A DNA stretch of 64,000 nt from Clostridiales bacterium (GTDB taxonomy: Bacteria > Bacillota > Dethiobacteria > Dethiobacterales > Dethiobacteraceae): positions 1-64,000 of the forward strand of contig JAGXRM010000055.1 of assembly GCA_018335855.1 (NCBI GenBank). Direction: 5' to 3'. The notes under the pieces are model-generated. The model had not been told where the DNA came from and searched no databases. It saw only the letters and a list, made by a program, of their open reading frames with translations. The translations under genes were made by a program, and so were the position numbers. This document shows positions 44,812-60,545 of the stretch, one piece after another; the first letter of the stretch is position 1, and every line of letters starts with the position of its first letter.

Positions 44812-46113
44812 TTGCAGAAAAATGGAGGAAAAAGTTTAGTATTTTTAAGACTGCTTGTTTTATCAGCTTTTGTTGTGCTGATTTTTTCCGGGTGCGGGGC
44901 CAAAAAATCTCCTGTATCTCCCGTAGCTGCTGTGGTCAGTGACGCGTGTATCCTCTGTCACATCAGTCCAGAGGCTATTGACATGATGCATGTCCCGCCG
45001 GAAGTTGCCGCCGGCGGCGGTGGGTGAGGCGTGGCGGGCCCGCAGTTAGCGGGCAGCGAAATGTTTTGTATCAGTGAGGATTTTCTCAGCTCGGAACACG
45101 GCAAGCTCGGCTGCATCGCCTGTCACGGCGGTGAAAATGTCGGAGATTTTGGGAAGGCTCATGCCGGGGTAAACCGTTATCCGTCAGCAGATGCCGGCGG
45201 TATCTGTAATCAATGCCACGGTGAAATAGGCGCAACCTTTGCTAATTCCATCCACTATACGGTTCAGGGGATGGCAAACGCTCTGGAAAACTTCACCCAT
45301 CCGGGAGTGTTGGACGTGGACGGCCCGTTGAAGACGGCGTTTGATAACAATTGTTACAAATGCCATGCAACATGTGGTTCCTGCCATGTCAGCAGGCCAA
45401 AAGCGTTTACCGGCGGTCTTCACTCCCAGCATGTTTTCACTAAGCGCCCGCCAATGGAAGACACTTGCTACGGTTGCCATGGTGCCAGAAATGCTGGCGA
45501 ATACATGGGTAAAGTTGGCTATACCAAGGATGTTCACTTTGAGTCCGGCAAACATTGTGCAGATTGTCACAATGTAAGTAATTTCCACGGTACCGGTGTT
45601 GCAGAGCAGAATATGTATGAAGTTGACCTGCCTCAATGTACGGACTGTCATGAAAATATTTATAGTGGTTCGTCCATTCCAGCCCATAACATACATTCTG
45701 CGGACACCATGTCCTGCCAGGTATGTCACGCATCAGCCAATAATAACTGCTTTGACTGTCATGCAACGCAAAAAACGGATGACAGTGTTGCTGGGGTGGC
45801 CGATCAGATGAGAATTATGTTTAAAATCGGCCTAAACCCGGAGAGGACCGAGGAAAGGCCATACAAGTACATTACTTTGCGTCATATTCCCACGACGCCG
45901 GATACCTTTGCCCCGCTGGGCGGTGAACTACCCAACTATGACCTGATTCCCAACTGGAAATACTCACCAACGCATAATATCCAGCGCAAAACAGTTCAGA
46001 ACGAGAGCTGCGATTCTTGTCACGGGAATCAGTACATTTGGCTGCAGGAGAAGGATTTACGGGAGAACGACAGCAAGTCCAACCTGAAACTGGTTGTTCC
46101 GGATCTGCCTTAA
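44812..46113 (+). CDS. Eleven-haem c-type cytochrome lipoprotein with selenocysteine (TGA 45025-45027)
   Basis: Reading through one in-frame TGA gives 433 residues. The lipoprotein signal LRLLVLSAFVVLIFSGCG places it outside the membrane. Eleven CxxCH haem sites are visible: CILCH before the TGA, then CIACH, CNQCH, CYKCH, CGSCH, CYGCH, CADCH, CTDCH, CQVCH, CFDCH and CDSCH. The TGA is codon 72 in the context GGGGUGVAGPQ. Without read-through the signal peptide and first haem would be cut from the other ten. A SECIS-like hairpin follows the TGA. TTG 44812 has GAGAGGTGA at good spacing. A rhodanese lipoprotein follows. Likely an extracytoplasmic electron-transfer or reductase protein; substrate unknown. 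Confidence 0.85.
45038..45054 (+). promoter_or_regulatory. Candidate SECIS hairpin in the cytochrome gene
   Basis: GCCCGC-AGTTA-GCGGGC, a perfect 6-base stem. The loop begins 17 bases after the TGA with G as its second base, inside the known bacterial SECIS range. Confidence 0.75.
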
Positions 46114-46206
46114 TTGCACTCCGGTTTTGAAGGGAGGGATGAATGAAACGTTTTATGGATTTAGTAATAGGTTAGCTATACCAAAAAATAAGGGGGTTAG
46201 TAAGAG

Positions 46207-47166
46207 ATGAAAAAGAATCTTAGATTACTGTTGCTTGTGCTTTTAATCGGTTTAATGATTTTTAGTGTGGTAGGTTGCGGCAAATCAACAACACCAACTC
46301 CGCCGCCCGTTGCGGAAGAACCCGTTGCTGAAGAACCCGAAGCGCTTGATCCTCAGCAGGTGCTACTTGATGCCGCTAAGGCATATTTCCCCAAAGTTGC
46401 GGATAGCAACAATATTATTCCCTCGGAAGATGTAAAGGACATGCTGGAATCCAATCCAGATTCCGTATTAATCATCGATATCCGCAGCGCAGAAGATTTT
46501 GAAGCCGGCCACATCCCTGGAGCGGTCCACAGCCCGTGGGCAAATGTTGGAGAAATCATGGATCGTATTCCCCGCAATAAGCCTGTTGTGGTTGCTTGTT
46601 ACAGCGGCCAGACAGCTGGCCAGACTATCGGCGCACTGAGAGCAGCAGGATTTGACAATGTGAAGTCCCTGTTTTACGGAATTAAGCTTGGCTGGACCGG
46701 GAAAAGCGGGTTTGAGCTGGAAGGTACCGGCATGGTAGCCGCTGCCGATCTGCCGGTAGTATCCGCCCCCACTAGCGAAGAAGAAGAAATTCTTTGGCAG
46801 GCCGCCAAAGATTACTTCCCCAAGGTGGCAACCTCAGCCGAAGGAAACAAAATTATTCCCGGGGCGGACCTGTACGCTGCGCTTCAGGATAACCCAAGTT
46901 CTTTCCATGTTATTGATATCCGCAGCGCCGAGCACTTCGCGGAAGGCCATATCGAGCACTCCGTTCACAGCCCGTGGTCCAAGTTCGGTGATTTGCTAGA
47001 AGGGCTACCCACAAACCGTCCGATTGTTGTAGCATGCTATTCCGGCCAGACGGCGGGACAGACCGTGGGCATACTGCGTATGATGGGTTACGACGCTTAC
47101 TCACTCTTTTACGGTGTACGTGACGGTTATGTCGCCAAAGACAATCTGCCGCTCGTTACAAACTAA
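46207..47166 (+). CDS. Lipoprotein with two rhodanese domains
   Basis: 319-residue protein with a lipobox ending VVGC (Cys24) and a Pro/Glu-rich linker. Two rhodanese domains have nearly identical active sites, VVACYSGQTAGQTIGALRAAG (first, about 126) and VVACYSGQTAGQTVGILRMMG (second, about 278). Each is preceded by VxIIDIRSAEDFEAGHIPG-type segments. Both catalytic Cys are kept, so sulfur or selenium transfer is possible on the outer face. The domains share a KxYFPKVA repeat start, showing internal duplication. It lies 93 bases after the Sec cytochrome and likely works with it. Confidence 0.85.
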   Translation: MKKNLRLLLLVLLIGLMIFSVVGCGKSTTPTPPPVAEEPVAEEPEALDPQQVLLDAAKAYFPKVADSNNIIPSEDVKDMLESNPDSVLIIDIRSAEDFEAGHIPGAVHSPWANVGEIMDRIPRNKPVVVACYSGQTAGQTIGALRAAGFDNVKSLFYGIKLGWTGKSGFELEGTGMVAAADLPVVSAPTSEEEEILWQAAKDYFPKVATSAEGNKIIPGADLYAALQDNPSSFHVIDIRSAEHFAEGHIEHSVHSPWSKFGDLLEGLPTNRPIVVACYSGQTAGQTVGILRMMGYDAYSLFYGVRDGYVAKDNLPLVTN

Positions 47167-48901: not shown

Positions 48902-49271
48902 AAGTTCACCCCCTTGCAATCCTATTATAGCCAAATGTGCTCACAATGTCAACACAATGAGATAAGTTTTAGCGTCCATGCGCTACTAGATATGCAGTCC
49001 AAAAAAACAAGTTATAACAACTTCAAGTTTATTCTCATGAGCATTATTCGATTGAAAGGTTTTTTGCAAATGAATAAGAAATTTTTGCCAGTTGAGAACC
49101 AAAAAACCGTTATTTCTGATATTGAAATGGTATAAAGCCAGAGGATTCAGATGGCGATGAATTGGATTGCGTGGTGCTAGCCGGAGATCCTATTTTTTCT
49201 GGACGTATGGTATTTCCGAATACGATTCCTTATCAGGCCGAGCAGGAAAGATTCTAAAAGCCAGTCTACAA
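48902..49271. other. Region with a possible decayed gene end
   Basis: No intact gene. On the plus strand 49126-49257 is open in one frame and reads protein-like (VVLAGDPIFSGRMVFPNTIP, then YQAEQERF and stop) with no start or ribosome site, so it may be the remains of an unidentified gene. The rest is AT-rich without visible signals. Confidence 0.35.
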
Positions 49272-50429
49272 TCAATGGGTGATTTGACCAGACATTATTT
49301 TACGAATCAGCGGCTTTGCCGTAAGTGGCAAATCATCAAGAATGAGCCCGTTGGTCCAGTCGGCCTGAACATGGCCCTGCATGACATACTGGAGAAGGGT
49401 CGCTTCCTGTGTTATGGCCTGTTTAATCTTTTTTAGTGTGCTTATTTTATCCGGTTGGCCAAACCCTATTTTCATAAATTCGTTAATAGAAGTAATCTCT
49501 GTCTTCTCCAAATACTCAAAAATCTTTTGCTCCAGGTTTTGACGGGATCCAAGTATTTTTTGAACCGACTGCATGTACTGTTCAGAACTGGCTGCACCTA
49601 TGGCTCTGGCCGCTAGAATTCCGGAAATACAGGCTATGTCAATGCCTCCACCGTGTAAGGGAGAAGCCAGTCCTGCGGCATCCCCCACCAACAGTGTATT
49701 GCCAAGAACCAGTTCTTTTCGGCGTAAAAGAGGTATGGGGCCACCGGTTTGCCTGAGAATCTGATAATGGTCAAGTTGCTCTTTTTCAATAATCCGTTTT
49801 AATTCTTGATGAATCTGAAGTCCGCTACTGCGCTTGCCAAACCAGCCCACACCTACATTTGCACAGTCCCGGGCTTTGGGAAAAACCCAATAATAGCCAC
49901 AATAATGCGGTTCAACTGCCACTTTTATTTTACCAAACAAAGAGGAAAAATCCCCGGCGAGGGTATACTGTGCTGTCATTCCCAGACGGACTGGCGGCAG
50001 CTTAAACTTTGCTTTTGAAACCGGTGATACACCACTGCTATCTACAATCCAGTCATAATCACTTTGCAAGCATGAAAAATTAATAGCGGTAACAGGTGTA
50101 TTCTCGTAGAGTTGACAGCCGCGCCGACAGGCATCCTCTGCCAACGCTTTTTGCCACTCCGACCGGTCGATTACCCACAGATGAAGGCCGGTACAATCTA
50201 CAGTAAAGGTATCTATAGCAGAAAGTATAGCTTCCTTGACTTTACAGCGGATACCAGCGATGGGAGGGTCTAAAAGTTTGAGCAAATCAAAAAAACCTTC
50301 TGCACAGGAAATACGTTCCCCAACGGACGCTTTTTCAAAGATTGTAACCGATAAACCAAGGGAAGCTGCCTCACGGGCCGCACTAAGTCCCCCGGGACCG
50401 GCTCCAATGATGGCCACCTTATCCCCCAT
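49272..50429 (-). CDS. Geranylgeranyl reductase-family FAD-dependent oxidoreductase
   Basis: 385-residue flavoprotein. N-terminal Rossmann motif VAIIGAGPGGLSAAREAASLG (about 5-25), the central PHYCGYYWVFPKARDCANVGVG (about 185) and C-terminal FAD motif LLVGDAAGLASPLHGGGI (about 267) are those of geranylgeranyl reductases and related archaeal/bacterial proteins. It lacks obvious membrane segments. In Firmicutes such enzymes may reduce isoprenoids or act in corrinoid or electron-transfer contexts; substrate not assigned. Confidence 0.82.
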   Translation of the reverse strand: MGDKVAIIGAGPGGLSAAREAASLGLSVTIFEKASVGERISCAEGFFDLLKLLDPPIAGIRCKVKEAILSAIDTFTVDCTGLHLWVIDRSEWQKALAEDACRRGCQLYENTPVTAINFSCLQSDYDWIVDSSGVSPVSKAKFKLPPVRLGMTAQYTLAGDFSSLFGKIKVAVEPHYCGYYWVFPKARDCANVGVGWFGKRSSGLQIHQELKRIIEKEQLDHYQILRQTGGPIPLLRRKELVLGNTLLVGDAAGLASPLHGGGIDIACISGILAARAIGAASSEQYMQSVQKILGSRQNLEQKIFEYLEKTEITSINEFMKIGFGQPDKISTLKKIKQAITQEATLLQYVMQGHVQADWTNGLILDDLPLTAKPLIRKIMSGQITH

Positions 50430-50465
50430 TTTCTCTACCTCCGCGCTTTTAACTGTTACTACATA

Positions 50466-50852
50466 CTATTTGACAGGGTAACAGCAGATGCATTTATTAA
50501 TACTTTCTGTATCTGTCTGACCCAGATGAATTGTCAGTTCTCCCGCTCCCGCAGTGATATTCAGTTTTTTAACATCAAGCATTGATAAATCCAAATCAGC
50601 ACGGGTCACACCGGTTCTGAATACTATTTCCGCCGGCACCCTCTCTGCCATAGAGAATTCCCAACGTGAAGGGGAGTCGCCTATGCTCCAGGAACGAGAT
50701 TCATCACCAATTATAATTTGTGCCAAGCTTCCACTTCTATGCACATTGATTTCCGGTCCACAGTGAACCCACGGTGTATTGGGAAGAACACAGCAAAAAA
50801 GCCGCCGAAAGATAATCCAATTAATAACTGTATAAAACCGTGTAAATGGCAA
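50466..50852 (-). pseudogene. Fragment of a LiaF/DUF2154-type envelope protein
   Basis: The reading frame ends with RADLDLSMLDVKKLNITAGAG and GELTIHLGQ, the repeat pattern of the C-terminal toast-rack domain of LiaF-like proteins. The N-terminal portion that would carry transmembrane helices lies in a different frame (hydrophobic stretch near 50790-50850), and the end degenerates after the motif. I interpret it as a frameshifted or truncated remnant; a short live protein cannot be excluded. Confidence 0.4.
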
Positions 50853-50894
50853 AAAACTATAATGTATTTAAATAATTTTTTGAGGAGCAAACTC

Positions 50895-51112
50895 ATGACT
50901 GTTCAGTCAGATTTAAAAACAGCTATTGCCGCATGTGAAAGCGCTAAAGGCAACTACGATACTTTTGCGCAGTCTACCGAAGACGAAGCTGCCAAAACAA
51001 TGTTTCAGCAAATGAGCCAAGATATGACAACCATCTCCAGCAACTAAACAGCCGTATGAAATATATTACTGAAAGCAATCCAATGAATCAGGGCCAACAA
51101 CAGCAACAATAA
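50895..51112 (+). pseudogene. DUF1657 protein, frameshifted near its end
   Basis: ATG 50895 follows TGAGGAG. The first 50 codons (MTVQSDLKTAIAACESAKGN ...) match DUF1657 proteins. The frame stops at TAA 51045, but a +1 frame continues directly with LNSRMKYITESNPMNQGQ and a Gln run to TAA 51110-51112, restoring the usual about 70-residue length. One base appears to be missing near 51043. DUF1657 proteins are small sporulation-associated proteins in Bacilli and Clostridia. Confidence 0.65.
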
Positions 51113-51133
51113 GTAAGAGGCTGCCGTACAACA

Positions 51134-51378
51134 TGATATGCTCCCCTTGTAGTAGACAGTTGAAATAATAAAACTGTTAATTACAAGGATGAGCTATTTT
51201 TGTGCCTCACTGGGTGAAAGTATCAGGGCCAGATAAGGTTGCAGCTATTGAAAAATATCTTCGAGACGAAGATTCACTTAGTCATATAGCCACTCAGCTA
51301 GGTGTCCGTGTGCCATCCATCAGAAAATGGCTTAACAAGTATCAATCATTAGGTCCTGACAGCCTGCTTAATCAATGA
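51134..51378 (+). mobile_element. 5' fragment of an IS3/IS150-type insertion sequence
   Basis: A terminal repeat-like TGATATGCTCCCCTTGTAGT is followed by a short ORF at GTG 51202. It encodes an HTH transposase N-terminus (SLSHIATQLGVRVPSIRKWL, ending SLLNQ-stop). The rest of the transposase (OrfB with DDE residues) is absent. The element ends abruptly against an nrfA fragment at about 51377, showing deletion after insertion. Confidence 0.7.
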
Positions 51379-51640
51379 AATTGGCCGCCAGGAAATGCGA
51401 ACCTTGGTCTGCGCCCAGTGCCATGTTACCTACTACCTCGACCCTAAAACAGCAGAGGTCAAAATCCCCTGGTCGCAAGAACCAAATATAAATGCGGTTG
51501 AAAACTACTTTTCTGCCTCTCTTTTCCGCGAATGGACACATACCATGACCGAGGCTGATTTAGTTAAGCTACGCCATCAGGACTACGAATTTTTCCTGGG
51601 CAGTAATCATTTTGAGGCCGGCGTAACCTGTGTCGATTAG
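51377..51640 (+). pseudogene. Internal fragment of cytochrome c nitrite reductase (nrfA)
   Basis: The frame GRQEMRTLVCAQCHVTYYLD (CxxCH haem), then VKIPWSQ and VKLRHQDYEFFLG through GVTCVD-stop matches the middle of NrfA, the pentahaem ammonia-forming nitrite reductase. The next haem motif (usually ADCHMP) is lost to the stop. It is missing both ends and abuts the IS fragment, so it is a relic. Confidence 0.75.
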
Positions 51641-51669
51641 GACACCTTACTAAGTAAAGGGAGGTATAA

Positions 51670-52185
51670 ATGATGTTGCGAGACGCTTATGAGCTCATGA
51701 AATTACTCCCAATTGGGACTGAGGCTGTGAAATTCGAACTCAAGGATATTTTTGGAAATATAGTTACACTAGACGATTTTTTGGGTAAGTATTGGGTAGT
51801 GCTGGAGTTTGGCTCCTTCACGTGACCTCCCTTCCGGAGCCAGATGGCTCCCATGGAGAGCGTAGCCGCTGAATTAAAATCAAAGCCCGTACGATTTTTA
51901 ATCATTTACACTCGTGAAGCCCACCCCGGCCAATATAATTTTAAGCATATTCCTCAACACTGCAACATAGAAGACAAGAGCAAGATGGCAGCAATGCTTC
52001 AACAAGAAACTGGCTTGGAAAACAGAACCATATTGATTGATGATATTAATGATTCTGTAACGAGAACGTATCGGGGATTTCCCAACAAGGCGTATATCAT
52101 TGGCCTTAACGGCAAAATAGTTTACGCCGATCGCTGGGCTTCTGCCGATAGAATCAGTAAAGAGGTACACAGTCTCTTGAAATAA
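51670..52185 (+). CDS. Iodothyronine deiodinase-like selenoprotein (TGA 51823-51825 read as Sec)
   Basis: Read-through gives 171 residues. VVLEFGSFTUPPFRSQM places Sec52 exactly where vertebrate deiodinases have NFGSCTUPPF. Downstream, FLIIYTREAHPGQYNFK matches the deiodinase VIYIEEAH region, and the C-terminal half is a thioredoxin-like fold with RTILIDDINDSVTRTYRGFP and KAYIIGLNGKIVYADRW. AAAGGGAGG precedes the paired ATG codons at 51670 and 51673. A hairpin of SECIS form follows the TGA. Thyroid hormone is not the substrate; a peroxidase or reductive dehalogenation role is open. It lies downstream of decayed genes and carries its own ribosome site. Confidence 0.88.
51836..51851 (+). promoter_or_regulatory. 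Candidate SECIS hairpin in the deiodinase-like gene
   Basis: GGAGCC-AGAT-GGCTCC, a perfect 6-base stem. The loop starts 17 bases after the TGA and has G as its second base. Confidence 0.75.
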
Positions 52186-52274
52186 CTATAAACAAGTAAC
52201 TGACTATGCTCAGGAACATTACAGTGAATAATTACCAAAAGCATCTCTGAATTTACAAATTTCATAATGAAAAG

Positions 52275-52305
52275 CAAAGTGGGCTTTAATTCGTAGCCCA
52301 CTTTG
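52275..52305 (+). terminator. Terminator after the deiodinase-like gene
   Basis: CAAAGTGGGCT-TTAATTCGT-AGCCCACTTTG, 11-base stem, then GTGTATTTATT. Confidence 0.75.
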
Positions 52306-52405
52306 TGTATTTATTAAATGTATAAGAGGTTTTCATTTATAATTTCCACAGAATAAGTTAAGCGAAAACATCAATAATAAATATAATAAGGGAAGGTGAT
52401 TTTCT

Positions 52406-53515
52406 TTGAAGATGTTTACTGCCAAAAGAGCTGCTTTACTTATACTGGTTGCAGGGATTATTTTTTTTGTATCCTCCCTGCTCTTAAATGATACCCGGGG
52501 GCAAAAGGAACCGGATGATCCAAATATTCCTGAAGAAGAACAGCAAGCTCTGGATAAATTTTTTCTAAACCTTAAATCAGGAGGGCCCTCTAAAGATGGA
52601 ATTCCCCCTATTGAAAACCCCAATTATCTATCCATAACTGACGCCGATGAAAATATTGATGATAATGAGGTCGTATTTGTTGTTGAATCTAGTGATGGTG
52701 TTTTTATTTATCGTCAGCGAATTCTTGCCTGGCATGAAATCGTAAATGAAACGTTTTCAGGGGAGAAGATGAGCATTACCTACTGCCCCTTGACTGGTTC
52801 TGCTGTAGGCTTTAAGGGGGCTGTTTCCAGAGGGGAAACCACCTTTGGAACATCGGGTAAGCTTTTAAACAGTAACTTGGTGATGTATGACCGGTTAACA
52901 GGCAGCTATATTCCTCAGTTGCTGGGAAAGGCTATCAATGGGAACTTAAAGGGAGAAAGACTGGATGAATTTCCAATTATCTGGACTAGGTGGTTTAAAG
53001 CAAAATCATTTTATGAAGAAGCCCAGGTTTTATCAGAAAAGACAGGTTTTATCAGAAATTATCGAGGGGATCCTTATGGCTCATATCTGGAAAAAAACAA
53101 TTACTATGATAGCGGTGGAGCTTTATTTCCCGTCATGCATCAAGATAACAGATTTGAGCCAAAAGAAGTTGTCATGGCTGGAAGAGTAAATGAAACACCT
53201 TTTGCTATTTTAAAGCAAAAGATTAGGAGCGAAAAAGTGATGAACCTGGAACTTGAAAACATCCCATTGGTCGCTCTTTATGATGGGGAGCTGGATACGG
53301 TGAGAATTTTTAGAAGAATGGATCAGGATCAAACGTTAACCTTTAGATTTGAAAACGGTGATTTTCTTGATGAAAATACCATGTCAATATGGAATGAAAG
53401 AGGAGCAGCGGTGGAAGGACAACAGCAAGGCGCCCAGCTGGAAGCTATAAATTCTTTTGACGTAATGTGGTTTGCCTGGGTTGCATTTCACCCTGAAACA
53501 GAAGTTTATGAATAG
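52406..53515 (+). CDS. DUF3179 domain protein, membrane-anchored
   Basis: 369-residue protein with an N-terminal anchor (about 8-26, ALLILVAGIIFFVSSLLL) and a DUF3179 domain. RILAWHEIVNETFSGEKMSI and TYCPLTGSAVGFKG are the family signature with its single conserved Cys, followed by TTFGTSGKLLNSNLVMYDR. TTG 52406 follows GGGAAGGTGAT. It probably faces the outside. Function unknown; the Cys in a YCPLTG loop suggests a redox or metal role. It overlaps the next membrane-protein gene by 8 bases. Confidence 0.82.
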   Translation: MKMFTAKRAALLILVAGIIFFVSSLLLNDTRGQKEPDDPNIPEEEQQALDKFFLNLKSGGPSKDGIPPIENPNYLSITDADENIDDNEVVFVVESSDGVFIYRQRILAWHEIVNETFSGEKMSITYCPLTGSAVGFKGAVSRGETTFGTSGKLLNSNLVMYDRLTGSYIPQLLGKAINGNLKGERLDEFPIIWTRWFKAKSFYEEAQVLSEKTGFIRNYRGDPYGSYLEKNNYYDSGGALFPVMHQDNRFEPKEVVMAGRVNETPFAILKQKIRSEKVMNLELENIPLVALYDGELDTVRIFRRMDQDQTLTFRFENGDFLDENTMSIWNERGAAVEGQQQGAQLEAINSFDVMWFAWVAFHPETEVYE

Positions 53516-54074
53516 GAACAATAGTTTGCACAAAATACGCAATATCTTAAAAAATAAAAGTGCATTAATTCCTGGAATAGTTATAGGTACTGTTTATTTT
53601 ATTCTATACCTGATAAGCATAAATCACTTGTTCTTAGCAGTTGGTGAATTTGAGATAGCTGTGATTGATAATCCTGGATCGAAATTTTTTACAATGAGAG
53701 CGCCTTTTTTATGGGAACCGATTGCCTCGATTTCATTCTTTGGGTTAAAGCTCTTTATTGCCCCTTTAAATATACTAATAGGGGTACTCCTTTCTCTGAT
53801 GGTGATGCTAAATATAGCGGTGGCCGTTTTTAGCTATCGATGCAAAAGATCTTGCCGCACCAACTTAGGCTACTCCTTTGCCGGCTTTTTGCCGGCTATG
53901 CTCACTGGTTTCGCCTGTTGTGCACCAACTTTTGTCATTGCTCTGGCACCAGTGCTGTCTTCCTTTACGGTATTCTTTGTTTCACTTCAGCCGTTTTTAA
54001 TCCCATTCAGTGTAGCAGTTATGACTCTGGGTTTGCTCTGGAGCCTATCGAGAATAACTGAACTTAATATCTAA
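53508..54074 (+). CDS. Polytopic membrane protein with a Cys-Cys motif, unrecognised
   Basis: 188-residue protein with four to five hydrophobic helices and MLTGFACCAPTFVIALAPVL in the third membrane segment. The paired Cys in a helix next to Pro resembles thiol-relay membrane proteins, but the family is not recognised. ATG 53508 overlaps the DUF3179 stop (ATGAATAG), so they are translationally coupled and may form a two-protein unit. Confidence 0.7.
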   Translation: MNRNNSLHKIRNILKNKSALIPGIVIGTVYFILYLISINHLFLAVGEFEIAVIDNPGSKFFTMRAPFLWEPIASISFFGLKLFIAPLNILIGVLLSLMVMLNIAVAVFSYRCKRSCRTNLGYSFAGFLPAMLTGFACCAPTFVIALAPVLSSFTVFFVSLQPFLIPFSVAVMTLGLLWSLSRITELNI

Positions 54075-54171
54075 CATAATCTATATTTTAACAGGGCCTC
54101 TTTTCTGTTTGTTATCTCTTGTTTTACTTTTTCCAATCCAAAGCATTTCGAGGAACATTTTCAGTTGACTA

Positions 54172-54915
54172 TCATAATTGAACAGGTAGTTTTTTAATGC
54201 TACCCGGTGATTCGATATCCTGCAATGCCTGTAAAGCCATGGTAACTACACGAGTTTGTGTTTCCACGTCAAAAGCCTTACCGGTAACTCTTCCCAGAGG
54301 AAAATTAACATGTACTGCTCTGGGAACCCGGATTTTTGCGGTTAATCCCTGCATTAATGTTATACTCACAGTAATGAGACCGGCTGTTTCCAGTTCCCGC
54401 TGAATCAATCCCACCGATTGATGGCACAGCGGTCAGCCTGGAGTAAGTAAAACTATATCAGTTTCTTGTTTTAATAGTTCCCGGGCTACTTTGCCTGCAT
54501 TGGCAATCAGTGTTTCATGCAGGGCATTAAGGATAAAGCCCATAAACCCATAATTTGTTGCAGAGATTCCTTTAATAAAGCCGGACTGCACCAGTTCCTC
54601 AAGTCTTGTTATGGGGAAGACACAATTAATATCTTTATCTGCGTCAGTATGGTCATAATGAGTGTGAGTGATTAGATAGTCCTCTAGTGGCGCTTTAGCC
54701 GAAACTTCCCGAAAGGAAGCATCCCCCTTTTTTGCCTTGACATCAAAGGGTGCCTGATTCTTTAAATGCACGCCAGCGGTAGTAACAAGGGCGACGCGAC
54801 ATTCGTTTAGAGTTTTTTGCAGGGGCTGCCACGGTACTTCTTTGCCCGTGTTATCAACTATAAATGGTTTAACAAGCTTCTGTGTCAAATTTTGTTTTAA
54901 CATATATTCTCTCAT
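54172..54915 (-). CDS. Selenoprotein B family reductase-like protein (PrdB-like; TGA 54433-54435 read as Sec)
   Basis: Read-through yields 247 residues (243 if the second ATG, 54903, is used). RVALVTTAGVHLKNQAPFD, ITHTHYDHTDADKDINCVFP and GFMGFILNALHETL precede VLLTPGUPLCHQSVGLIQRE, matching the glycine/betaine/D-proline reductase selenoprotein B family (PrdB/GrdB), with Sec161 at its known place. A 7-base-stem SECIS-like hairpin follows the TGA. No proline reductase PrdA or other Prd/Grd subunits are nearby, so the substrate is probably different. Confidence 0.85.
54404..54422 (-). promoter_or_regulatory. Candidate SECIS hairpin in the PrdB-like gene
   Basis: On the minus strand ATCAATC-GGTGG-GATTGAT; perfect stem, loop starting 18 bases after the TGA with G first. 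Confidence 0.75.
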
Positions 54916-55054
54916 CCCTTCAAGTTACTATCCTGCCTGGGAAAGCGGGATATACTGCACAGAGGACTTTCTTTGCGGATGCTGCGGAGCATTATATTGT
55001 ACAGTTGTAGTATTATAGTTTGGTCATAGTCTTATACAAGTTCTTACATACATT

Positions 55055-55786
55055 CTATGATGGAAGCATCTGCTTTTCCCGCCAATAGATTAGCACCAAA
55101 ATTACGGCAAAAAGAACGATACTTGAAAACTGGGCAGTATTGAAGACAACAAAAGTAGGTTCACTGCGGAAGTAATCGATAAAAGAACGGGCGGCAAAAT
55201 ACCCGGCGAGATAGGTCAGGAACAGCTGCCCTTCTCTTACCCTGTCTCTCAGATACCAGAGGACAAAGAAGATAAGCAGTGTAGCTATCATCGTATACAG
55301 CGGGATATTGTGATAGGGCACGCCGCCAACCAGCCTCGGCCAGGGCGCCGATGGCGCATGCAGGCCGTAGACATCGCAACCGAGTCGGGCGATTGCTTCC
55401 CCCAGGGCGAGGGATGGGGCGAAAACATCAGCCATGGCCCAAAATTTAACTTTCCGGCGGCGGACAAACCAGATTGCGACCAACACTCCTCCGGTAAGAC
55501 CGCCCAGAAAAGCCAGGCCGCCTTCGTGAATACGGAAAAGATAGAGGGGGTCAGCGAGAAAAAGATTGAAATTCAACAACACGGAGAGAATGCGGGAACC
55601 GACGACGGCTCCGACAACCGCGTAAATGGCAAACTCGAAGATCAGATCCGGTTCAATTTTTTTGGCAATGGCACGACGGTGGGCAAGGGCCAGCCCAACT
55701 AAAATAGCAGCAACCAACCCCAATCCGTAAAGATGGAAAGTCAATGGCCCAAGGTAAAATGAGGGCTCCACATAATTCAGAAGCAT
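55055..55786 (-). CDS. Lgt-like prolipoprotein diacylglyceryl transferase family protein
   Basis: 243-residue membrane protein with about seven helices. The Lgt landmark RIHEGGLAFLGGLTGG (about 84-99) is present, but the usual GRIGNFxN signature is replaced by ARLGCDVYGLHA (about 134-145). The conserved Arg is kept while the Asn residues are not. It could attach diacylglycerol to lipoprotein Cys or be a diverged relative. AAGGAG lies within the end of the upstream ccdA-like gene, and the two overlap by 10 bases. It is the third gene of the Sec-thioredoxin operon. Confidence 0.75.
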   Translation of the reverse strand: MLLNYVEPSFYLGPLTFHLYGLGLVAAILVGLALAHRRAIAKKIEPDLIFEFAIYAVVGAVVGSRILSVLLNFNLFLADPLYLFRIHEGGLAFLGGLTGGVLVAIWFVRRRKVKFWAMADVFAPSLALGEAIARLGCDVYGLHAPSAPWPRLVGGVPYHNIPLYTMIATLLIFFVLWYLRDRVREGQLFLTYLAGYFAARSFIDYFRSEPTFVVFNTAQFSSIVLFAVILVLIYWREKQMLPS

Positions 55787-56211
55787 CTGTTCATCTCCTT
55801 TGCACTAGAACTATTGTACCCTTTTACATTTAACGGAACCTTCTTAATTCCCGGCATTGAAAAAGTTAAAACTCCCAAAAGGTGTAACCCCATTACTATT
55901 GCCACCACAGCCAGAAGGTAATACCACCCGGCCCCAATCCGGCCAAAAAAGAGGCCAAAATAAGAGGCAATAAAACCGAGAATGGCAAAAGTCACAGCCA
56001 AGCCTGTCACAAACGACAGCGACATCAAAAAACCTTTTATTCTTGACCCTTCGCTGTAGCCGCCGATGTAGCCGACCATAACAGGTGTCATTGACAAAAT
56101 GCAGGGGCTAAAACTTGTAACTAAGCCGCCTGCAAAAACGATCACGTAAGTGAGAATAGACGTGTTTGCAAGGGAATTTGGTATAATTTCAGAGAAAAAC
56201 AGATCCAGCAA
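55777..56211 (-). CDS. CcdA-like membrane protein, half length
   Basis: 144-residue protein with three to four helices, carrying AGGLVTSFSPCILSMTPVMVGYIGGYS with the first active Cys and Pro of CcdA/DsbD transmembrane domains. CcdA is usually about 220-240 residues with a second Cys helix (SPCATP), absent here. After KKVPLNVKGYN the sequence becomes SSSAKEMNRCF, coding from the lgt ribosome site, so a deletion probably removed the second half. A single-Cys half might still dimerise. TTG start with GAGGTGAGG upstream; 21 bases after the Sec thioredoxin. Confidence 0.7.
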   Translation of the reverse strand: MLDLFFSEIIPNSLANTSILTYVIVFAGGLVTSFSPCILSMTPVMVGYIGGYSEGSRIKGFLMSLSFVTGLAVTFAILGFIASYFGLFFGRIGAGWYYLLAVVAIVMGLHLLGVLTFSMPGIKKVPLNVKGYNSSSAKEMNRCF

Positions 56212-56232
56212 AACTACCTCACCTCAATAGGC

Positions 56233-56670
56233 TTAATTATCCAGAATTTGTGCTATTCTGCTCTCTATATTGCCTTTTGTCAAAACCCCTGTATCGTTTG
56301 CAACAATTTCACCATTGCTGTCAATATAGAAAAATGCCGGGATGTATCTAACCATGAATTCATTCGCCATGCGGTTGCCTTCCTGATCGCCAACATCGAC
56401 AATAACAAAAACAACTTGATCTTCATACTTCTCTTTAAGAGCCATAACCACGGGCTCCATTAGTTTGCATGTAATTCACCAATCAGCATAAAATTCTACA
56501 AATACAGGTTTTCCTTCGGCCAGTGCCTGTTCATAAAGGGCAATTGGATCAGGTGTAGCGGAAAACTGACTCTCAGTCCGATTCAAAAAAGGAATATATG
56601 GTTTTGCCATTACACCAACAACCAGTAAGCCTACAAATACCAGGATTAACCGTTTTACACTAGTCTTCAA
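56233..56670 (-). CDS. Membrane-anchored thioredoxin-like selenoprotein (WUxxC; TGA 56476-56478 read as Sec)
   Basis: Read-through gives 145 residues. The N-terminal anchor (KRLILVFVGLLVVGVMA) is followed by VFVEFYADWUITCKLMEPVV, the thioredoxin active site with Sec65 in place of the first Cys, and the fold continues through RYIPAFFYIDSNGEIV, containing the cis-Pro. TTG 56670 follows AGAGGAGAA. The extracytoplasmic domain would be reduced by the neighbouring CcdA-like protein. A BlaI-type palindrome lies just upstream, so expression is probably regulated with blaI-blaR1. Confidence 0.88.
56439..56457 (-). promoter_or_regulatory. Candidate SECIS hairpin in the thioredoxin-like gene
   Basis: On the minus strand GAGCC-CGTGGTTAT-GGCTC; loop of 9 bases beginning 24 bases after the TGA, with G second. 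Confidence 0.6.
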
Positions 56671-56700
56671 GCTCGATTCTCCTCTCGTTTTTATTGCCAG

Positions 56701-56719
56701 GCACTACTCTTTGTAGTGC
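56701..56719. promoter_or_regulatory. BlaI-type operator, Sec-thioredoxin operon
   Basis: GCACTAC-TCTTT-GTAGTGC, a perfect palindrome 31 bases before the thioredoxin start. The same half-sites and 5-base spacer occur upstream of the blaI-like gene. Confidence 0.75.
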
Positions 56720-56742
56720 AAATCCCGAAAAAAAGAGCAGCG

Positions 56743-57597
56743 TCAGACACAACCCTGCCCAAAACTAATAAGTATACCTGCTAAAAAAAGGAAGGTAGCC
56801 GCAATATGGGCGGGCGGGGCAATTCGAATTTGTCGGTTACCTGATAACAGCTGGGCGATTCGCAAATCGGGTGTTGTATTAGGCTCGATCAACCATACCG
56901 GAACTGAGATATTTTCCACATCTGAGAACACTTTCAAAAATGCGGATGCCAAATATCTTTTGTCCGGAATCTTGTTCAATGAAGCCTGATCAGCGGCTAA
57001 TTCTTTAAATTGGTCATAGCTGCGAAATAGATACTTTGCTAAAGGCAGAAAGAAAAGGCTCCCTTTTATTGCCCTGCTGATAACCACCTTTAGCGGATCT
57101 GAATGGTAGAGGTGGTACTGTTCATGTAAAAGCACCGCTTCCATTTCAGACATGCTAAACGCGGCTGCGAGCTTGCTCGAAACAACGATTTGCGGACGAG
57201 AAAATCCGTACGTAAAAACCAGGGGAGTGTCACTGTTTATGCATACTGTATGTTTTAGAAGGCCCAACCTGTCTAAGAGCCGGATTAACTCACAGGGTGG
57301 AGTCGTTCTCAATGCTGACAGCTTCCTGTTCAGCCTGAGGAAAGAGAGATACTGTTTCACAGTAAAATAAATAAAAAATGAGATGATGAAAAACAAAGCA
57401 CCTGTCAGTAAAAGTAACATTATTTGATTAATCAGGTTATTTTGAATGGCAAAGCCAAGTCTGACAAACTTAAATTTGTAAAATACAGTAAGAAACAAGA
57501 CTCCCGCAACAGCGGCAAAAAGGGCTGTCAACCCGTAAAATGACACCTGTGCTTTAATGTGGGGATGCGAGTAGTCACTCTTTAAATGTATCATCAT
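56743..57597 (-). CDS. M56-family (BlaR1/MecR1-like) membrane metallopeptidase
   Basis: 284-residue protein with N-terminal helices (two segments in residues 20-70), a zinc protease motif VLLHEQYHLYHSDPLK (HExxH variant with Q, about 153-157) and the downstream FKELAADQASL providing the third ligand region. One C-terminal helix follows. No penicillin-binding sensor domain is present, so the signal is likely not a beta-lactam. It starts inside the last 23 bases of the blaI-like gene and is expected to cleave that repressor. Confidence 0.85.
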   Translation of the reverse strand: MMIHLKSDYSHPHIKAQVSFYGLTALFAAVAGVLFLTVFYKFKFVRLGFAIQNNLINQIMLLLLTGALFFIISFFIYFTVKQYLSFLRLNRKLSALRTTPPCELIRLLDRLGLLKHTVCINSDTPLVFTYGFSRPQIVVSSKLAAAFSMSEMEAVLLHEQYHLYHSDPLKVVISRAIKGSLFFLPLAKYLFRSYDQFKELAADQASLNKIPDKRYLASAFLKVFSDVENISVPVWLIEPNTTPDLRIAQLLSGNRQIRIAPPAHIAATFLFLAGILISFGQGCV

Positions 57598-58030
57598 TTT
57601 TCATATCCTTTGAATTTTTAATAAGATCCTCCAAAGCCTTTAAATATTCCGGGCTTGCTTTTTCAAGAGTCTGCACAAAAGAAGCAATTGCATCCTCTCC
57701 ATATTCATGTAAAAGCTCTTCAGTTACTTGCCTGGAAATATCGTTAAGGAAGCACTCCTTTGTTTGCACAGGCAAATAACAGTAAGCTTTTTCACCGGGT
57801 TTCTTCTGAAGAAATCCTTTATCTGACAAACGGTTCATTACAGTCATCACAGTATTAAAGGCAATTGGCCTTTTTAAACTTATGCTTTCCGTAACTTCTT
57901 TAATCATCACACCTTCTCCCCGGGACCAGGCAACTTCCATGATTTCTGTCTCGAGATCCCCTAAAACCCTGTTAATACCACGCTTTTCAAGATTAAAAGA
58001 TTGAATTAGCTTTTTTTTCAAGCGCATCAC
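57575..58030 (-). CDS. BlaI/MecI/CopY-family transcriptional repressor
   Basis: 151-residue winged-helix repressor. DLETEIMEVAWSRGEGVMIKEV (about 25-46) and the recognition region IAFNTVMTVMNRLSDKGFLQKK (about 56-77) are typical of BlaI, and the C-terminal helices serve dimerisation and BlaR1-dependent cleavage. GTG 58030 or a downstream TTG may be the start. A palindromic operator lies between its promoter and start, indicating autoregulation; the same site upstream of the thioredoxin operon indicates a shared regulon. Confidence 0.88.
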   Translation of the reverse strand: MMRLKKKLIQSFNLEKRGINRVLGDLETEIMEVAWSRGEGVMIKEVTESISLKRPIAFNTVMTVMNRLSDKGFLQKKPGEKAYCYLPVQTKECFLNDISRQVTEELLHEYGEDAIASFVQTLEKASPEYLKALEDLIKNSKDMKNDDTFKE

Positions 58031-59303: not shown

Positions 59304-60545
59304 ATGGTCAGCCTCGAAAAGCTCCATCCTGAGGAGCGAAACTTCCTCGAAAACGTACCCTGTCCGACATTTGCAGCACAGCCTTGGGTCAGGGGCAAAA
59401 AACTGAAGGAAAGGCGAGTCGCAATAATTTCCACGGCCGGTCTGCATCAGCCCGAAGACCGCCCCTTTACCTCTGTGGAAGGTGATTACTACCGTATAAT
59501 TCCCGGGGACATTCAATCAAATAACCTGGTAATGAGCCATGTCTCGGTCAATTTTGACAGGACAGGCTTTTACCGGGACTTAAATGTGGTCTTTCCCATT
59601 GACCGCCTGAGGGAACTTGCAGAAAGCGGCGATATCGGCAGCATAGCAAGCTTTCATTATTCTTTCATGGGCGCTGATGATCCTATGAGATGGGAGCAGA
59701 CGGCACGCCATCTTGCAGGCCTGTTAAAAAAAGACAATATTGACGCCGTGTTGCTGGTGCCGGTCTGACCGCTTTGTACGCGCGCCGTTGGCGTGCTGGC
59801 ACACTTTCTTGAGGAGGAAGGGCTTGCTACCACGCAAATCAGCCTGATTCGCCTGCATACGGATGTTATCAAGCCGCCAAGAGCCCTTTGGGTGCCTTTT
59901 GAACTTGGTCGCCCGTTAGGAGAGCCAAATAACCCAGCTTTTCAGAAGCGTGTTCTGATGTCCGCCCTCGGTCTGCTTGAAGCGCCACGGGGCCCGCTGC
60001 TGATCGATTTCCCGGATGATACCCCGTTATTAGGGGGGGCGCCGGTTATGCTTGCCTGCCCATATGTTCCGCCGGCAGAGGATGCCGAGACCACGCAGGC
60101 CGACCGGCTTTGCAAGACCTTTAAAACAGAAATGACATCGATGAGACCCTGGTATGATCAGGCCTTAAAAAAGCGAGGGCGTACCATAGTCGGAATTAGC
60201 AAACTCACACCCGAGGCTATCGCAGATTTTTTGTGTTCTTTCCTTGAAGGCAGCACTCCTACTCAGAACCCGCGCCAGGATGTATCTCTTGCATACCAAC
60301 TCGGGTATTCAGTAGAAGACCTGAAGGCCTACTACTATGAGGCTATCACGGCGCAACCTGGTGCTGATGTTCTGTCTAGCGAAGATCTCGATAAATGGTT
60401 TTGGGAAAATACAGTTGCCGGAAAATTCTTGCGGGAATTAAGAGGAATTTGTCTTAAAAACGAAGATAAATTGTTGCAACAGACCGCCGCAAGGCGGATA
60501 ATACCTCAAAAAACCCTGTTAACAAATACTGGTGGTAAAGGATAG
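59304..60545 (+). CDS. Selenoprotein B family reductase-like protein (TGA 59766-59768 read as Sec)
   Basis: Read-through yields 413 residues. RRVAIISTAGLHQPEDRPF, VMSHVSVNFDRTGFYRDLNV and the Phe-rich HYSFMGADDP precede VLLVPVUPLCTRAVGVLAHF, the selenoprotein B family active site with Sec155. After about residue 230 comes a distinct C-terminal extension of about 180 residues (IVGISKLTPEAIADFLCSFL, YYYEAITAQPGADVLSSEDL) not present in the shorter paralogue in this window. GGAGG precedes ATG 59304. SECIS-like hairpin after the TGA. Substrate unknown. Confidence 0.85.
59780..59796 (+). promoter_or_regulatory. Candidate SECIS hairpin in the long selenoprotein B-like gene
   Basis: GCGCGCC-GTT-GGCGTGC with one G-U pair; loop begins 19 bases after the TGA with G first. 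Confidence 0.7.

Follow-up and report, generated by a model that had tools for sequence, protein, structure and literature searches.

Does the TGA codon that interrupts a thioredoxin-like gene in this Clostridiales genome mark a dead gene, or does it encode selenocysteine (Sec) in an active one, and how would the product of such a gene be kept reduced? We examined these questions in the 64,000-nucleotide stretch of contig JAGXRM010000055.1 (hereafter the window). A membrane-anchored thioredoxin with a WUxxC active site had been proposed at positions 56233–56670, with no strand given; the coordinates hold, and the gene is read from the minus strand. The features of the locus are:

55055–55786, minus strand: lgt-like gene (prolipoprotein diacylglyceryl transferase), the ATG of which overlaps the stop of the truncated ccdA
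55777–56211, minus strand: half-length CcdA (PF02683), 144 residues, TM1–TM3, with a single redox Cys in FSPC
56233–56670, minus strand: predicted Sec-containing membrane-anchored thioredoxin, 145 residues, from the frame and the PF00085 match
56438–56458, minus strand: putative bacterial SECIS hairpin, 6-bp stem and 9-nt loop
56476–56478, minus strand: in-frame TGA, predicted Sec codon 65; the same codon is TGA in 55 of 55 Sec-type homologues
56743–57597, minus strand: M56 (BlaR1-type) membrane peptidase, upstream of the thioredoxin gene with a gap of 72 bp
57575–58030, minus strand: BlaI/CopY-type repressor, overlapping the M56 gene

Architecture of the thioredoxin

The gene starts at a TTG (56670), approximately 8 nt downstream of a ribosome-binding-site-like AGAGGAG, and stops at a TAA (56233–56235); ordinary open reading frame calling breaks it at the TGA. 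With the TGA read as Sec, the protein is composed of a basic N terminus, a single hydrophobic helix (approximately residues 6–27) and a thioredoxin domain (residues 46–140). The match to PF00085 spans both sides of the TGA (E = 3.3 × 10−18; 66 bits, gathering score 23.5). The active site reads FYADW-U-ITC-K (W64-U65-I-T-C68) and lies opposite a cis-Pro loop (I110-P111), of which P111 is invariant in the homologue alignment. The helix, the domain match and this motif together bear out the proposed architecture, in which Sec replaces the first Cys of WCxxC in an anchored thioredoxin. The order of helices and strands in a single-sequence AlphaFold prediction fits a thioredoxin, in a model too poor for use (mean pLDDT 52). 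Scores against the ResA (41.6, cut-off 170) and DsbE (30.1, cut-off 123) models place the protein outside the ResA/TlpA/DsbE group, and neither this protein nor the fused relative that was scored reaches the cut-off of any NCBIfam model, TsoB included.

TGA is retained at the catalytic position

The source genome encodes a full-length SelB (E = 3.6 × 10−115), SelA (E = 6.1 × 10−174) and a tRNA-Sec (72.9 bits, above the gathering score). Homologues of the thioredoxin were searched for in 97 genomes of the class and in 398 genomes sampled across the phylum. Every homologue with E < 10−15 in the class has TGA at this codon; most are fusions of approximately 400 residues in which an N-terminal helix and a thioredoxin domain (WUSAC) precede a complete CcdA domain of six helices. 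The phylum sample adds about 25 or more TGA members together with close Cys members. In all, 54 homologues besides the window gene, drawn from several Bacillota families, have TGA at the same codon, where it aligns with nothing but the catalytic Cys. Past this codon, the window frame contains no frameshift and retains every invariant residue. The claim that the frame is under selection throughout the thioredoxin fold is supported by homologues in many genomes, which keep both the frame and the TGA codon, a degree of retention well beyond chance.

Looking for Cys orthologues, a check proposed with the original prediction, yielded seven Cys homologues in other genomes, all lacking the SECIS hairpin sequence and most with an adjacent CcdA, and none in the source genome. 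In a tree built from few columns and with many unresolved branchings, most members have Sec and those with Cys are scattered (three label changes). Because Sec is the usual state across the family, its presence in the window gene is no special adaptation. An intact Cys paralogue beside the TGA copy had been named as the mark of a nonsense pseudogene; the best other thioredoxin of the source genome is a cytosolic TrxA located beside TrxB and only 28% identical, so this argument against the gene falls away. Separately, in each of five genomes (G011, G016, G038, G042 and G009) a Trx(Sec)–CcdA fusion occurs together with a standalone Sec-thioredoxin of about 200 residues, mostly with YxxTUxxC and no CcdA nearby.

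The window protein is closest to a Sec protein encoded outside the class (50% identity) and has no counterpart in the second genome of its genus; the gene was therefore probably acquired horizontally. No close relative was found among viral contigs and plasmids.

A SECIS hairpin constrained at synonymous sites

The window hairpin lies 23 nt after the UGA, with stem GGAGCC/GGCUCU, loop CGUGGUUAU (G at loop position 2) and a minimum free energy of −8.1 kcal/mol. It fits the published bacterial SECIS (bSECIS) model, which has a loop of 3–9 nt, a stem of 4–16 bp, a G in the first two loop positions, a distance of 16–37 nt from the UGA and a minimum free energy of at most −7.5 (PMC13188914). A conforming hairpin occurs 19–26 nt downstream of the TGA in all 55 Sec members (at 23 nt in 41 and at 26 nt in 11). 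Their mean stem score is 15.9, as opposed to 9.2 in synonymous recodings of the same peptide; for the seven Cys members the values are 5.1 and 4.9, three of them having no conforming hairpin and four having weak ones at scattered positions. Codon usage was compared across the 55 Sec members. Entropy at other conserved columns is about 0.6–1.05 of expectation, and within the hairpin it falls to 0 at a Glu (GAG in 50 of 50) and a Val (GTG in 53 of 53), to 0.21 at an Ala (GCT in 46 of 50) and to 0.45 at a Pro (CCC in 45 of 54). In distant members the stem is rebuilt with other bases (AUCCCGC/GCGGGAU and GCACC/GGUGC).

Free energy is less informative. The window hairpin taken singly has z of about −1.1 to −1.3, which is not significant on its own, and mean z against synonymous recoding is alike in Sec and Cys members (−1.08 and −1.03); such tests are weak because the region can also adopt competing folds. 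No covariation was detected in a 16-sequence RNA alignment, in which the stem is nearly invariant and so leaves none to be seen. We regard the position-specific hairpin test and the codon entropy as the decisive evidence for the predicted SECIS element, a case built on comparison among homologues.

Two other readings of the TGA have to be weighed against this evidence. If the codon were a newly arisen stop in a thioredoxin gene free of selection, the state of the neighbouring ccdA would fit, since its truncation means that at least one damaging event has hit the locus. Such a nonsense pseudogene is nevertheless very improbable, given a TGA common to homologues across several Bacillota families, a hairpin held at synonymous sites, Sec machinery in the genome, and a downstream frame with no frameshift and no invariant residue lost. 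A code in which TGA specifies an ordinary amino acid, or read-through without Sec, would also leave the frame open, as would any code in which TGA is sense. That reading is scarcely credible: local genes use TGA as a stop (for example, the ccdA fragment at the lgt start), dedicated Sec factors are present, the TGA matches only the catalytic Cys, and the SECIS constraint is confined to members with TGA. We rejected both readings on the Sec machinery (SelA, SelB and tRNA-Sec), the codon entropy and the position-specific hairpin test. The TGA is, then, almost certainly a Sec codon, as judged from comparative evidence.

A half-length CcdA beside the Sec-thioredoxin

The window ccdA lies directly downstream of the thioredoxin gene on the same strand. 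Its PF02683 match (57.8 bits, gathering score 27.1) covers the N-terminal half only (profile positions 4–114 of 219). TM4–6 are missing together with the second Cys (of ASPCATP), so that the protein has one, rather than both, of the redox cysteines of TM1 and TM4; reading through the TGA stop reveals no convincing CcdA homology beyond it. Within its half, the protein is 67% identical to an intact relative, keeps every residue conserved at the 90% level and, relative to its thioredoxin, shows no excess divergence (mean residual +0.016, s.d. 0.069).

Across the family, 35 of about 50 loci, the window included, have a CcdA either fused to the thioredoxin or encoded next to it; about 14 have none, and some of these are additional copies in genomes where a fusion occurs as well. 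As some members have no CcdA nearby, the pairing is common and not obligatory. No neighbour other than CcdA recurs across families. The proposed link to a CcdA-like reductant channel thus stands for the family and is qualified at the window itself. Because the copy here is a half protein without the second redox Cys, it cannot be assumed to be the usual channel, and the normal route for electrons is incomplete here.

Among the 97 genomes, no other half-length CcdA was found except the copy in G087 (contig of Dethiobacter sp. CROMO_A_105), and since this copy lies in about 8.2 kb of sequence identical to that of the window, the truncation in the two genomes is a single event. In relative L122, an intact Trx–CcdA fusion is followed by lgt, and a deletion joining ccdA to lgt would therefore be the simplest history. 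The source genome also encodes an intact, all-Cys CcdA beside a TlpA-like protein on another contig (G000:C7), a pair that could plausibly substitute as reductant for the Sec-thioredoxin. We consider it somewhat probable that the half-CcdA is a dead remnant of the deletion and that the C7 CcdA reduces a genuine Sec-thioredoxin, which is a version of the best explanation and not an alternative to Sec. The intact ccdA before lgt in L122, the uniqueness of the half protein, the C7 pair and the family members without a CcdA neighbour all favour such a history. Against it, the fragment keeps its conserved residues and has not diverged in excess, although a recent deletion would look alike. It is distinctly unlikely that the half-CcdA functions, with two copies forming a symmetric carrier in which paired TM1 cysteines replace those of TM1 and TM4, as a minimal transmembrane relay feeding the Sec-thioredoxin. 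The fragment does offer a direct test of whether a homodimer can meet the internal two-fold symmetry of CcdA.

The identity to the G087 copy (L067) extends over window positions 49549–57778 (approximately 8.2 kb; G087:C15:1–8230), in a genome placed in another genus of the family. The match itself continues to near 49083, and its final 450 bases contain all of the differences. As its source, recent transfer and a contig shared between bins are indistinguishable.

Proposed function of the Sec-thioredoxin

Our preferred reading, to which we assign a probability of about 0.8 as a whole, is that the protein is an extracytoplasmic Sec-containing disulfide reductase fed through CcdA. UGA at codon 65 would be decoded as Sec by SelB and tRNA-Sec, guided by the SECIS element 23 nt downstream. 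The N-terminal helix and basic N terminus suggest that the catalytic domain lies outside the cytoplasmic membrane. There, the Sec65 selenolate would act as the attacking nucleophile and Cys68 as the resolving residue, and the protein would therefore be expected to reduce oxidised thiols, disulfides among them, on that side of the membrane. In DsbD, electrons pass from cytosolic thioredoxin through the CcdA-type membrane domain to the extracytoplasmic thioredoxin domain (gamma). By analogy with DsbD gamma, the oxidised protein may be re-reduced by cytosolic thioredoxin through a CcdA-type membrane protein; the redox partner here may be the half-CcdA or the intact CcdA on the other contig.

The original prediction also named selenols and peroxides as possible substrates. 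A protein acting mainly on peroxides or on selenols and organic oxidants, rather than on protein disulfides, would be compatible with Sec chemistry and with the general view of selenoproteins as antioxidant enzymes (PMC13188914). We consider this role unlikely, since the window protein has no peroxiredoxin-like features, resembles thioredoxin and the DsbD gamma domain most closely in sequence, and has no peroxidase encoded among its neighbours. A defence role found no PADLOC match.

Relation to known selenoproteins

Sec-containing thioredoxins with UxxC (PF00085) are a validated selenoprotein family (PMC13188914 Table 1), exemplified by Geobacter GSU3446 (PMC1914089). The window protein has the same fold, the same replacement of the first CxxC cysteine by Sec and the same retained resolving Cys; it differs in its N-terminal membrane anchor, its probable extracytoplasmic position and its linkage to CcdA, and it scores below the thioredoxin equivalog cut-off (62.8 vs 96.8 bits). 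The 'Thiol:disulfide interchange protein' family with UxxC (PF13098), a predicted selenoprotein family (PMC1794560, PMC13188914), also has Sec first in a UxxC thioredoxin-like domain and may be the same broad group; compared by description, it differs in that the window protein fits PF00085 better (66 vs 40.5 bits for PF13098).

Like DsbD, the family sets a thioredoxin domain beside or within the polypeptide of a CcdA, the fused relatives combining thioredoxin with a six-helix domain carrying SPC and ASPCATP. Unlike DsbD, the thioredoxin is N-terminal to the membrane domain, there is no alpha domain and Sec replaces Cys; at the window locus, moreover, only half of the membrane domain is present. 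TsoB (NF045694, rhodanese/DsbD fusion-like), a selenoprotein with a DsbD-like membrane domain, is the best-scoring selenoprotein model for the fused relative (128.5 bits; window protein, 38.9; cut-off 805). The window protein has no rhodanese domain, whereas TsoB, with a UxxxxU Sec pair, is classed as a rhodanese-like form (PMC13188914). SaoT (NF040730) and the HUIPC thioredoxin-like protein (NF047660) are also thioredoxin-like selenoproteins with UxxC, and neither model gave a match at E = 0.001.

Carboxydothermus hydrogenoformans has been credited with a Sec thioredoxin (PMC1794560); in genome G143, the single TGA thioredoxin is a Trx–CcdA fusion of the present family. The family has thus probably been touched on before, and we did not find the CcdA link described in the accessible literature. 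UxxC thioredoxin selenoproteins being known already, the window protein is a further member, with the half-CcdA as its one unexplained feature. What emerges is a large, clean family in which membrane-anchored Sec-thioredoxins of many Bacillota are paired or fused with CcdA and the Cys versions have no SECIS. It is useful for selenoprotein annotation, as the two members scored reach no NCBIfam cut-off and gene calling splits the gene at the TGA, and its members lend themselves naturally to asking what advantage Sec confers on an extracytoplasmic disulfide reductase.

Neighbouring genes in the window

The BlaI–M56 pair may regulate the operon; it was not found near relatives of the Sec-thioredoxin. 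The source genome (G000) contains four full-length lgt genes (C7:25581–26282, C7:83854–84555, C11:39714–40388 and C55:55082–55759), of which the window copy scores lowest, and a fifth, broken match on C45.

Several nearby genes are further selenoprotein candidates. Directly downstream of lgt, 54172–54915 (minus strand) encodes a PrdB/GrdB-like candidate with an in-frame TGA in TPG-U-PLC (TIGR04483, 178 bits, below the cut-off of 300). A second PrdB/GrdB-like candidate (59304–60545, plus strand; 413 residues, VPV-U-PLC) exceeds PrdB in length and has an additional C-terminal part. A Deiodinase-like candidate lies at 51670–52185 (plus strand; PF00837, E = 6.9 × 10−16), with an in-frame TGA in GSFT-U-PPF. 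At 52406–54074 (plus strand), a DUF3179 protein overlaps a membrane protein of 200 residues that contains GFACCAPTF and has no Pfam match. Finally, 45031–47166 (plus strand) encodes a multihaem cytochrome c (360 residues) and, after it, a protein that combines two rhodanese domains with a lipoprotein-like N terminus.
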